In this document: positions 14,279 to 20,201 of the stretch, piece by piece
Position numbering within the stretch: the stretch's first letter is position 1
Layout: the number at the start of each line of letters is the position of its first letter
NCBI GenBank assembly: GCA_021325525.1
Contig: JAJPHB010000063.1
Span: forward strand, 1-64,000
Direction: 5' to 3'
DNA from: Alphaproteobacteria bacterium
GTDB taxonomy: Bacteria > Pseudomonadota > Alphaproteobacteria > ATCC43930 > CGMCC-115725
Length of the DNA: 64,000 nucleotides
Position numbers and translations under genes: made by a program
The notes under the pieces: model-generated
The model's input: the letters and a program-made list of their open reading frames with translations, nothing else
Databases searched by the model: none
What the model was told of the DNA's origin: nothing

Positions 14279-14395
14279 CGAATCCGCAGCGGCTGACATC
14301 ATGGGATTACATCCTCCGCGTAAATTCCCGGGACCAAGACGCTTTCGTTGAACGAGCAGCGCAGGGACCAACGGCACACGCGAAGGAGCGCAGCG

Positions 14396-15025
14396 ATGGC
14401 CGATCGGAACATCTATCGCAAGATCGAAGAGGAAATCCCGCGATTGCGGCGCTATGCGCGCGCCCTCACTCGCGAGGTGAGTGCCGCCGACGACCTTGTC
14501 CAGGATTGCCTGGCGCGCGCCCTCGGCAAGGTGCATCTGTGGCAGAAGGGGACCGATCTGCGCGCCTGGCTCTTCACCATCCTGCACAATCAATATGTGA
14601 ACCATGTCCGCCGCGCGGTGCGCGAAGGGGCCGCGGTCGCGCTCAGCGAGACCGAGCCGATGCTGACCACCCAGCCCAATCAAGCCAAGCGCCTCGAACT
14701 GCGCGATCTGGAGCGCGCCATCGCCAAGCTGCCCGAGGAGCAGCGCGCCGTTCTGCTGCTGGTCGGGCTCGAAGGCATGCGCTATGAGGAGGTCGCGACC
14801 GTCCTCAACGTGCCCGTTGGCACCATCCGCTCGCGCCTGTCGCGCGGGCGCGAGATGCTGCGCCAGCTCATCGGCATGGCGGAACCCCGCGAGCCGGCGC
14901 GGCGGCGCGGCGTTTCCGTCGGGTTGAACTTGAGCGCGCATGGCGAGACGCCGCTGAGCCGGGCAGCGCCGCTGCGGCGCGCGCCCTTTGCCGCCGCCCT
15001 GCCGCAGGAGGCGCTGCACGATTGA
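14396..15025 (+). CDS. ECF-type RNA polymerase sigma factor
   Basis: The 209-residue protein has region 2 (about 15-75) with RRYARALTREVSAADDLVQDCLARAL and the region 2.3/2.4 helix LRAWLFTILHNQYVNHVRR, and region 4 (about 105-160) with LPEEQRAVLLLVGLEGMRYEEVA and the recognition helix VPVGTIRSRLSRGREMLR. Region 3 is absent, as in the ECF group. A roughly 45-residue basic C-terminal extension is unusual for short ECFs. AAGGAG lies 8-13 nt before the chosen ATG, which excludes an earlier ATG at 14348. No anti-sigma gene or PhyR/NepR is adjacent. It probably controls a stress regulon; the signal is unknown. Confidence 0.9.
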   Translation: MADRNIYRKIEEEIPRLRRYARALTREVSAADDLVQDCLARALGKVHLWQKGTDLRAWLFTILHNQYVNHVRRAVREGAAVALSETEPMLTTQPNQAKRLELRDLERAIAKLPEEQRAVLLLVGLEGMRYEEVATVLNVPVGTIRSRLSRGREMLRQLIGMAEPREPARRRGVSVGLNLSAHGETPLSRAAPLRRAPFAAALPQEALHD

Positions 15026-15869: not shown

Positions 15870-18800
15870 CTGGAGGAGCAGCTGAGGAAACTCAAGCCAC
15901 AGGCGCCTTTCCCGGCGGAAACCAGTGCCGCAAAGTCCGCCGTCGCGGTCGGCGCGGTTGCGGTCGAGCGGCGGCCGCCGGCGCTCATCTATGAGCTGCA
16001 CCCGTCCCTGGCGGGGCCGCTGCCGCTCTGGCGCGGTCATCTGCCGCGCATCGCCGCGATGGGCTTCGACACCGTCGCCCTGCTCCCCTTTCATCCGACC
16101 GGCGCCGATCGCAACCTCTACGCCGTCGCCGATCACTATGCCGTCAGCGCGGCGCTGGCGGAGGGCGCTCCCGTCGACGGCGCCGCCGCGCTCGGCGATT
16201 TTCTCGCCGCGGCGCGGGGGCACGGCCTTGCCGTCATCATGGATCTGGTCGTCGACAGGGTCGCCCGCGACGGGACCCTCGCGCGCCAGCACCCGGACTG
16301 GGTCCTGCGGGACGGCGGCGCCGGCGCGTTCGCGCCGCTTGCCCATGACGGGCCGGCGCAATCCTCCATCCTCGCCTATTTCGCCGGCGTCGTGCGGCAT
16401 TATCTCGATCTCGGCTTCGCCGGATTTCGCTGCGTCGCCGCCCACCGCGTGCCCGTCGCGAGCTGGCAGGCGCTGATCGCGGGCGCCCGCGCTCAGTCCC
16501 CGGATGCGCTCTTCTGCGCCGATACCCTGGGCGCGCCGCTCGATGCGGCGGAGCGGCTTGCGGGCGCGGGATTCGACTTCCTTTTCGACAGCCTCGCCTG
16601 GTGGGATTTCCGCAGCCCTTGGCTCTTGGAGCAGCACGAGGCTCTGCGCCGCATCGCCCCGACCATCGGCTTCCCCGAGAGCCATGACACGGCGCGGCTC
16701 GCCGGCCGGCTCGCGGCCGCCGGCATCGGCGATGCGCGTCTCATCGAGGCGGAGTACCGCCAGCGCTACGCCCTCGCCGCGACCTTCTCGAGCGGGCTGC
16801 TGATGCCGATCGGCTATGAATGGGGCTGGCGATCCCCCTTCGATCCAGCGCCCGCCTGCTTCCGCCCCGCGGCCGAGGAGCGGCATTTCGACCTCGCGCC
16901 CGCCATCGCCGCGGTGAACCGGATGAAGCGCAGGACGCCGGTCCTCGAGAGCAACGGACCGCTGCGCCTCCTCTCGCCACCCGATGAGCCCGTCATGGCG
17001 TTGGCGCGCCAGGACGAGGACGCCACGGAATGGGTCTTCACCGTCTTGAACCGCGACCCGGCGACGGCGCGGCAGATCGCGACCGACGCGCTCATCGCCA
17101 TCGCCGACGACCGCCATCTTCTCCTCACCGAGATCACCGCGGCGGAGGCCGCCCCGGTCTCGACGCTTCGCATCGCCCTCGAGCCGCTGGAGACGCGGAT
17201 CTTCCTCGGCCGTTCGCGACCTCTCGCCGCCGTCCTCGCCGATATGGCGCCGGCGCCGCACATGCATCCCGAGTGGCGGCCGGAAGCGCGGATCGTCATC
17301 GAGGCGGTCGAGCCCTTGATCGACAATGGCCGCTACCCGGTGAAGCGCATCGTCGGCGAGTCGCTCGAAATGACCGCCGACATTCTGCGCGACGGGCATG
17401 ACAAGCTGGCGGCGCTCCTCCGCTACCGCCATGCGGACGAGGCGACCTGGCGCGCGAGCCCCATGCGCCATATCGACAATGACCGCTGGGGCGGCCGCTT
17501 CGTCCTCGAACGGATCGGCCGCTATCTCGTCGCCATCGAGGCGTGGACGGATCATTTCGCATCCTGGCGCGACGAGGTGGCGAAGAAGCGCGCGGCAGGC
17601 CAGGACATTAGGCTGGAGCTCATCGAGGGGCGGGCGCTCGTCGCTGCCGCCGCGGCGCGCGCCGATGCCGCCGACGGCGCCGCCTTCACCGCTCTTCTCG
17701 CTTCCCTGGATGCGGCGGATGACGAGGAGAAGGCAGCGCTGCTGCTGTCGCGCCTCGTTGCCGATCTCGTCGCCCGCTGGCCCGACCGCAGCGACGCCGT
17801 CCGGACGCCCAATGCCTTCGAGGTCATCGCCGACCGCCCGGCGGCGCGCTTTGCCGCCTGGTACGAGATGTTCCCGCGGAGCCAAGGACGCGTGCCGGGC
17901 CGCAGCGCCAGTTTCGATGACTGCATCGCCCGCCTTCCCGAGATCGCCGCGCTCGGCTTCGATGTCGTCTATCTCGTGCCGATCCACCCGATCGGCCGCA
18001 TCAACCGCAAGGGACGCAACAACGCGGTCGTGGCGGCGCCGGGCGACCCCGGCAGCCCCTACGCGATCGGCGCCGCGGAGGGCGGCCATTGCGCCGTCGA
18101 GCCGGCGCTCGGCACGCTCACGGATTTCCGCCGCTTCGTCGCCGCGGCCGCGACGCTCGGCATGGAGGTGGCGCTCGATTTCGCCGTGCAATGCGCGCCC
18201 GACCATCCCTGGATTCGCGAGCATCCGGAGTGGTTCCTGTTCCGCCCTGACGGCACCATCAAATATGCGGAGAACCCGCCGAAGAAGTACCAGGACATCG
18301 TCAATGTCGATTTCTACAATTCCGACCGCGCGGCGCTGTGGCGCGCGCTGCGCGACATCATCCTGTTCTGGGCGGCGGAAGGGGTCCGCATCTTCCGCGT
18401 CGACAATCCGCACACCAAGCCCGTTCCGTTCTGGGAATGGTGCATCCGCGAGGTCCAGGACCAGTACCCGGACATCATCTTCCTCTCCGAGGCCTTCACT
18501 CGGCCGAAGATGATGAAGCTTCTCGCCAAGGCGGGCTTCACGCAGTCCTACAGCTACTTCACCTGGCGCAACACGAAATGGGAGCTGACGCAGTACCTGA
18601 CCGAGCTGACGCGCGGCCCCGAGCGCGAATACATGCGGCCCAATTTCTTCACCAACACGCCGGACATCCTGCCGCAGATCCTGCAGCTCGGCGGCCGGCC
18701 GGCCTTCCGCACCCGCCTCGTCCTGGCGGCGACGCTGTCGCCGGCTTACGGCATCTACAACGGCTTCGAGCTCTGCGAGAACACGGCCATTCCCGGTACC

Positions 18801-19214
18801 GAGGAGTATCTCCATTCCGAGAAATACGAATACAAGGTGTGGGATTGGGACCGGCCGGGCAACATCAAGGCGGAGATCGCCGCGCTCAATCGCTTCCGTC
18901 GCGCCAATCCGGCCCTGGCGCTGTTCACGAACCTCACCTTCTGCCCGGCCGATGACGACAACATTCTGGCCTATGTGAAGCTGACGCCGGACCGGGCGAA
19001 TATCGTCGTCGCCATCCTCAATCTCGATCCCTTCGCGCCGCACGAAGCGACGGTCGAGCTGCCTCTGCACGAGATGGGGTTTCCCTGGGACAGCGTCCTT
19101 TTGCTGGAGGATGGGCTCGGCGGGATGACGCGCGAGTGGCGTGGCGCGCAGCAGAGAGTGCGGCTCGACCCGGCGGTGCAGCCGGCGCTTCTCGCACGCG
19201 TCCGGCGGCTCTGA
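15870..19214 (+). CDS. glgE: Alpha-1,4-glucan:maltose-1-phosphate maltosyltransferase with extra N-terminal GH13-like domain
   Basis: GlgE extends alpha-1,4-glucans with maltose from maltose-1-phosphate. Residues about 480-1110 form the enzyme proper: the DUF3416-type N-domain beginning RIVIEAVEPLIDNGRYPVKR, then the GH13_3 core with nucleophile Asp845 in FRVDNPHTKP, acid Glu874 in FLSEAF and FTNTPDILP. Residues about 40-430 are a second GH13-like barrel in which the nucleophile site GFRCVAAH has Val189 for Asp and the acid site CADTLG has Asp218 for Glu, so it is probably inactive. Similarity extends upstream of the first ATG (16059), but the frame back to the stop at 15858 holds no ATG, GTG or TTG. 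A CTG at 15870 (AGGA 7 nt upstream) or 15882 is the best start; 15870 is used provisionally. It is the first gene of the trehalose/glucan locus. Confidence 0.88.
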   Translation: MEEQLRKLKPQAPFPAETSAAKSAVAVGAVAVERRPPALIYELHPSLAGPLPLWRGHLPRIAAMGFDTVALLPFHPTGADRNLYAVADHYAVSAALAEGAPVDGAAALGDFLAAARGHGLAVIMDLVVDRVARDGTLARQHPDWVLRDGGAGAFAPLAHDGPAQSSILAYFAGVVRHYLDLGFAGFRCVAAHRVPVASWQALIAGARAQSPDALFCADTLGAPLDAAERLAGAGFDFLFDSLAWWDFRSPWLLEQHEALRRIAPTIGFPESHDTARLAGRLAAAGIGDARLIEAEYRQRYALAATFSSGLLMPIGYEWGWRSPFDPAPACFRPAAEERHFDLAPAIAAVNRMKRRTPVLESNGPLRLLSPPDEPVMALARQDEDATEWVFTVLNRDPATARQIATDALIAIADDRHLLLTEITAAEAAPVSTLRIALEPLETRIFLGRSRPLAAVLADMAPAPHMHPEWRPEARIVIEAVEPLIDNGRYPVKRIVGESLEMTADILRDGHDKLAALLRYRHADEATWRASPMRHIDNDRWGGRFVLERIGRYLVAIEAWTDHFASWRDEVAKKRAAGQDIRLELIEGRALVAAAAARADAADGAAFTALLASLDAADDEEKAALLLSRLVADLVARWPDRSDAVRTPNAFEVIADRPAARFAAWYEMFPRSQGRVPGRSASFDDCIARLPEIAALGFDVVYLVPIHPIGRINRKGRNNAVVAAPGDPGSPYAIGAAEGGHCAVEPALGTLTDFRRFVAAAATLGMEVALDFAVQCAPDHPWIREHPEWFLFRPDGTIKYAENPPKKYQDIVNVDFYNSDRAALWRALRDIILFWAAEGVRIFRVDNPHTKPVPFWEWCIREVQDQYPDIIFLSEAFTRPKMMKLLAKAGFTQSYSYFTWRNTKWELTQYLTELTRGPEREYMRPNFFTNTPDILPQILQLGGRPAFRTRLVLAATLSPAYGIYNGFELCENTAIPGTEEYLHSEKYEYKVWDWDRPGNIKAEIAALNRFRRANPALALFTNLTFCPADDDNILAYVKLTPDRANIVVAILNLDPFAPHEATVELPLHEMGFPWDSVLLLEDGLGGMTREWRGAQQRVRLDPAVQPALLARVRRL

Positions 19215-19932
19215 ACGCCGCCTTCGCCACCGCTCCGAGGATGCCCGAAGCCTCGACATCGAAATCGCGGATCAGCGCCTCGATGGCGCGGGCGCGGTTC
19301 TCCTTCGCCTCGCGCTCCGCCTGCTGCTCCGCTTCGAGGCGCTGCCGCGCCGCGCCGTTCTCGCGGAAGACGTGGATCGCCTTCGTCATGTCGCCGATCT
19401 CGTCCTGCCGCTCGGTGTCGGTGATGGTGACGGAATAGTCCTGGTTGGCGAGCTGCGTGACGATACCGCTGATGCGCACGACCGGGGCGACGACGCGGCG
19501 GCCGAAAATGCCGTACATGAAGCCGGCGAAGATCGCCGCCGTGAGCCCGACCATGATCTCGGCGATGAGTGTCATCGTCTCGGCATGCTGCCGCGCCGCC
19601 GCCGCCTCGCGCTGGGCGCGGGCGTTCATCTTGGTCTGGAACTGCGCGATGGGCTCCATGATGACCGCCTTGTTGCGGTCGTAGTTCTCGTCGAAGATGA
19701 GCTTGCGCGCCGTGTCGAAATCCTTCGCCGCGACCGCCTTCATCGCCGCGTCCTTGGTCTTGATGAGGGCGTCGGAATTGGCCTTCGCCTTCTCGATGAG
19801 GGCGAGCTCCTCCGCCGGCGCGCCGAGCGCCTTCAAGCGGGCGACGACGCGGTCGCGCGTCTTTGTCTCGTTCACCTCGCGCCAATAGGCGTCGTAATGG
19901 CTCTTCTCGCCGAAGATCGTATAGCGCCGGAG
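19215..19932 (-). pseudogene. Truncated methyl-accepting chemotaxis protein (middle fragment)
   Basis: On the minus strand an open frame gives the end of a four-helix-bundle sensor (IFGEKSHYDAYWREV..., FDTARKLIFDENYDRNKAVIMEPI), a transmembrane helix (IAEIMVGLTAAIFAGFMYGIFG), a HAMP domain (PVVRISGIVTQLANQDYSV, ERQDEIGDMTKAIHVFREN) and the first turn of the signalling region (AIEALIRDFDVEASGILGAVAKAA). Similarity ends at about 19215-19230, exactly where the glgE stop lies on the other strand, so the entire methylation/CheW-binding region is missing. The sensor also lacks its first transmembrane helix. It cannot be functional and marks a recombination junction. Confidence 0.75.
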
Positions 19933-20060
19933 ATTGCGCCTGCCGGACCTCGTCACAGGGCAGGATGAACTCTGCCAGTTCGCGGCTGTAGAACGCCGCG
20001 GCGGAGCGGATCGGCGCCGCGGCGAACCCCGCCGACGCCGGGCAGGCGTCGGCGCAGAAA
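19925..20060 (-). pseudogene. C-terminal remnant of a DUF5996-like protein
   Basis: Reading the minus strand from 20059 gives an open stretch including SAGFAAAPIRSAAAFYSREL, directly followed by AEFILPCDEVRQAQSP, which resembles the C-terminal segment of DUF5996 proteins (a Y-x-E-L-x-EF-x-LPY-x-x-VR pattern before a final helix). The frame then runs out of similarity at about 19930, where the chemotaxis receptor fragment begins in a different frame. No start and no body of the protein remain. The family call is from memory of the motif and is moderately secure. Confidence 0.45.
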
Positions 20061-20201
20061 ACCGGCCGGCGCAGTGCGGTTCACGGCGCGGCCCCGGCGA
20101 TTGTGGGGTGTAGGACTGAACCGGCGCTCACCGCATGCGTTCGCAGCTTTCGAGGCGCCGCCCATGCGGGCGGCTCTCCAGGAGACGATGCAGCCCGCCC
20201 G

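Follow-up and report, generated by a model that had tools for sequence, protein, structure and literature searches.

The question raised by this locus is how pieces of two unrelated genes came to lie on the minus strand of the spacer between glgE and treS, and whether the pieces or the glucan genes were there first. The window (the whole 64,000-nucleotide stretch analysed here) is part of a 4.79-Mb draft genome in 172 contigs. The two flanking genes and the insert between them all lie on one contig of 69.6 kb, in an operon of the order glgE-treS-glgB-glgX, with glgB downstream of treS. The insert, at 19215-20074 and roughly 860 bp long, begins directly behind the glgE stop codon (19212-19214) and resembles its flanks in G+C. 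The glgE gene itself is complete: when its last 400 residues were aligned to 25 relatives, the match extended to residue 396-400 in 21 of them. Some 400 extra residues (16059-17290) precede the N/S domain of GlgE, with a weak amylase-like domain match at residues 2-80. The coordinates of the features are collected in Table 1.

Table 1. Genes, gene pieces and junctions in and around the glgE-treS spacer (window coordinates)
Feature	Position	Strand	Evidence or remark
glgE	16059..19214	+	left flank, whole to last residues; Pfam GlgE_dom_N_S 5e-56, GLGE_C 1.1e-20
Junction 1: glgE stop / receptor piece	19214..19216	.	end of homology
Methyl-accepting chemotaxis protein (MCP) gene, internal piece	19216..19929	-	54% to Azospirillum ramasamyi MCP; HAMP 5.7e-7
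Junction 2: receptor piece / DUF5996 piece	19926..19934	.	ends adjoining, or with a few bases of overlap
DUF5996 gene, near-C-terminal internal piece, 48 codons	19931..20074 (about)	-	PF19459 E 1.4e-7; 56% over 48 residues
Junction 3: DUF5996 piece / treS leader	20072..20083	.	minus-strand stop codon 20081-20083
treS with maltokinase-like C-terminal part	~20202 (ATG)..23543	+	right flank; Pfam Alpha-amylase 3.1e-91, Malt_amylase_C 2.8e-31, Mak_N_cap 1.7e-7

The larger piece comprises 238 codons and covers the sensor helices, the second membrane segment and HAMP of a chemotaxis receptor. Over query residues 10-247 it aligned without gaps to an annotated MCP carried on a plasmid of Azospirillum ramasamyi (WP_246024381.1; 54% identity over nearly the whole piece, E 6e-46), and judged by this alignment the homology is far beyond chance. 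From the alignment coordinates the piece corresponds to residues 70-307 of the 562-residue Azospirillum protein, with both gene ends missing. A Pfam scan of the piece returned HAMP only and no C-terminal signalling domain of methyl-accepting chemotaxis proteins (PF00015), and homology stops at 19216. Because the whole signalling domain and the first, N-terminal membrane segment are missing, the piece cannot work as a receptor. The Azospirillum gene, in contrast, is intact, has its C-terminal half and stands in a different gene neighbourhood. A check for decay gave 0 gaps over the 238 codons and changes in 0 of 4 strongly conserved columns, the small number of columns making this a weak test. 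Substitutions relative to the closest homologue numbered 73, 64 and 98 of 238 at the first, second and third codon positions, a pattern that would be expected from a coding past.

The smaller piece had been described in an earlier note on this DNA as a DUF5996-like C-terminal fragment. The family and the strand are borne out by a minus-strand match to PF19459 (window 20077-19925, E 1.4e-7, above the curated cut-off), which extends only over positions 219-269 of 296. It is not the C-terminal end, since the last roughly 30 residues of the protein are missing, so that this piece, too, lacks both gene ends. Comparison with an intact homologue (56% identity over 48 residues) places it at about 20074-19931. 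Six of 18 near-invariant columns are changed in the piece, whereas the 16 intact homologues from relatives, scored by leave-one-out, show 0-2 changes each. At four of the six the conserved residue is a tyrosine, which has become cysteine in three cases. By this measure the DUF5996 piece has decayed under relaxed constraint. The receptor piece could be younger than this decay, or the decay test may be too blunt. The literature search found no paper naming DUF5996.

Parent genes of the pieces were looked for in the own genome, in relatives, in the order and the class, and in GTDB contigs, plasmids, phages and viral contigs, and no close parent of either piece was found in these collections as searched. 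For the receptor, the own genome held no match above 38% identity besides the piece itself. None above 40% was present in 60 relatives, either at the locus or elsewhere, and at that identity the intact receptor which the earlier note had proposed to look for at this place in related genomes is not found there. At E 1e-30 the piece itself was the only receptor match among 43 genomes of the order and among 385 genomes of the class (both including the own genome, the latter with up to seven candidates scored per genome); the sets of relatives, order and class genomes overlap. The GTDB contig collection gave four distant matches, the best with 45% identity over a short part, the phages gave one record at 31%, and the viral contigs gave no receptor match. 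The best match in all collections searched was the one at 54%, from an Azospirillum megaplasmid in the plasmid search. The receptor gene was likely acquired horizontally. For DUF5996, the own genome yields no match besides the piece. Full-length matches occur in 16 of the 60 relatives, and a further relative has a short one. The source site of the lost DUF5996 gene was not recovered by comparison with G001, a genome of the same genus: the region around its intact DUF5996 gene (L091) matches the own genome only as scattered pieces on several contigs.

The relative age of the insert and the operon was read from 28 loci in as many relatives, each with a treS start (L010-L037, L038 being left out). 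Of these loci, 25 have glgE immediately in front of treS in the same orientation and lack the fragments. Measured from the stop codon of glgE to a conserved tryptophan of TreS, the distance is 23-609 bp in 24 relatives, compared with 1059 bp in the window; L017, which has both genes and no stop at the expected place, is left out of this count. The remaining three loci (L015, L022 and L028) have treS and no convincing glgE match within 1.5 kb upstream, the one weak match to the glgE query at L015 (E 1.6e-7, 23%) overlapping its treS. The genome G001 is collinear with the window over 13.4-34.9 kb, from the sigma-factor gene through glgE, treS and glgB to further glucan genes, and lacks the insert; G006 and G003 are collinear with the window over the parts compared. 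Since glgE and treS are adjacent in 25 of 28 relatives and the block in G001 is collinear without the insert, the fragments arrived after the glucan gene order was in place. Judged by gene order, the glucan cluster is the older at the locus and the gene pieces are the newcomers. The operon is of the GlgE-pathway type, its treS carrying a maltokinase-like part; it has the order glgE-treS-glgB as in relatives and differs from theirs in its long spacer with debris.

The earlier note had concluded the opposite, namely that insertion or rearrangement had brought the glucan genes here and that the receptor gene predates the locus. The sole support for this sequence of events is that the pieces abut glgE. 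Given the adjacency without fragments in the relatives it is refuted unless all of them lost the receptor independently, and the collinear block within the genus and the lack of a receptor match above 40% identity in the 60 relatives speak against it as well; we regard it as scarcely credible. The order of arrival is the reverse, the fragments having come into an older operon. What the earlier note had seen correctly is a gene graveyard with frozen recombination junctions: there are two gene pieces without ends and, where at least two junctions had been counted, three were found (at about 19215, 19930 and 20075).

An assembly artefact, with a chimera built into the contig, would also give an insert that is unique and has no near relative, and the genome is a draft. 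This is unlikely, as the collinear flanks and the insert are in one contig, the insert has the G+C of its surroundings and decayed DUF5996 residues are not expected in a chimera made from a live gene. Nor do we think it at all probable that the minus-strand frame is expressed, as a chimeric membrane protein or as an antisense regulator of glgE or treS. In its favour, the frame stays open over 369 codons, and there is a 312-codon GTG frame at 19956-19018. However, it runs on into glgE antisense, and long open frames abound in such high-G+C DNA (for example 1198 codons antisense to glgE). A simple scan found no promoter-like site on either strand, the frame is absent from all relatives searched, and the DUF5996 part of it is decayed. 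Very probably, the insert consists of non-functional remnants of two unrelated genes which entered the spacer of an older operon in the present lineage. Bacterial pseudogene remnants in spacers (for example PMC522871, PMC2916853 and PMC3899985) are likewise fragments without ends and under relaxed constraint; here, both pieces are homologous to gene parts with their ends missing, and relaxed constraint is seen in the DUF5996 piece. Unlike in those remnants, two unrelated pieces are joined here, they are flush with the stop codon of a neighbour, and the parent copy was not found in the genome.

The junctions bear on the route by which the remnants formed. As the earlier note had stated, the receptor is cut at the glgE stop and the DUF5996 piece runs into the middle of the receptor; the cut at the stop holds to within 1-2 bases (homology to 19216, stop codon at 19212-19214). 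The two pieces are read in different frames, and their ends meet to within about 2 bases. They may share a short stretch at this junction. The residual treS leader (20078-20201) has no clear beyond-chance resemblance to the spacers of 22 relatives, so that junction 3 is not pinned by ancestral sequence; the weak ranks of L036 (equalled by 3 of 100 shuffles) and L033 (by 6 of 100) are about as expected from 22 tests. A 23-nt direct repeat flanks the insert (19182-19204 and 20121-20143, 18 of 23 positions identical), and none of 200 shuffles reached 18. As a target-site duplication it is unproven, as 5 of 200 random window pairs equal it.

Two routes to this arrangement were weighed. In the first, a longer DNA with the DUF5996 and receptor genes on the minus strand, foreign or relocated, would have landed in a permissive spacer, where it would have been useless and trimmed by deletions. 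The deletions would have run to the glgE stop and been halted there by selection on glgE, which would explain why the receptor piece is flush with the stop codon. The deletional bias known from bacteria (PMC5447742) agrees with this route. No intermediate stage of the erosion was found. We consider a larger insert followed by erosion somewhat probable, and prefer it only moderately over capture in one step because no paired parent locus was found.

In the second route, a double-strand break just behind glgE would have been sealed by end joining, capturing two short pieces from unlinked places, so that whole genes would never have been present here. That both pieces are internal, abut so closely and possibly share a few bases is consistent with such a patchwork, as is the presence in the own genome of two Ku genes (L116 and L117, G000:C9), which lie some 16 kb from each other. 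It would also agree with decay being seen in the DUF5996 piece and none in the receptor piece, and with the two genes not being neighbours in relatives: the receptor query gave 0 matches in the 16 intact DUF5996 neighbourhoods, searched over flanks up to about 6 kb and shorter at contig ends. On the other hand, the source genes are now absent from the own genome, and the exact stop at the end of glgE needs either chance or selection. One-step capture is a possible but doubtful origin. Only tentatively could the spacer be taken as a natural record of one-step end joining, in which two internal pieces of unlinked, now absent genes were joined at a break immediately downstream of a stop codon, the genome having two Ku genes.

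Directly upstream of glgE lies a sigma-factor gene (14348-15025, PhyR_sigma2 and Sigma70_r4_2), an order kept in G001, G006 and G003. This sigma factor is presumably linked to EcfG/PhyR as a general stress regulator, which suggests that the glucan/trehalose cluster sits beside such a regulator. Inside the insert, the plus strand has three terminator-like sites, of which two overlap, compared with 0.7 expected; these putative sites, which are consensus matches only, might lower read-through into treS.

Other DNA is found in the same spacer in relatives. The glgE-treS spacer of G011 (L012:1168-1421) carries a roughly 250-bp MITE-like repeat which occurs in tens of places in that genome, with full-length copies at 82-94% identity and 56 matching pieces including that of the spacer itself. 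The spacer of G014 (L021; G014:C58:5804-5964) carries palindromic repeats, with 128 matching pieces in the genome, again including its own. Since repeats also sit in these two spacers, the glgE-treS spacer tolerates insertions of different junk DNA in several lineages of the family. The insert in the window is otherwise ordinary genome debris. Debris beside an operon dates the debris and not the operon, and the direction of the evolutionary inference for this locus is corrected accordingly.
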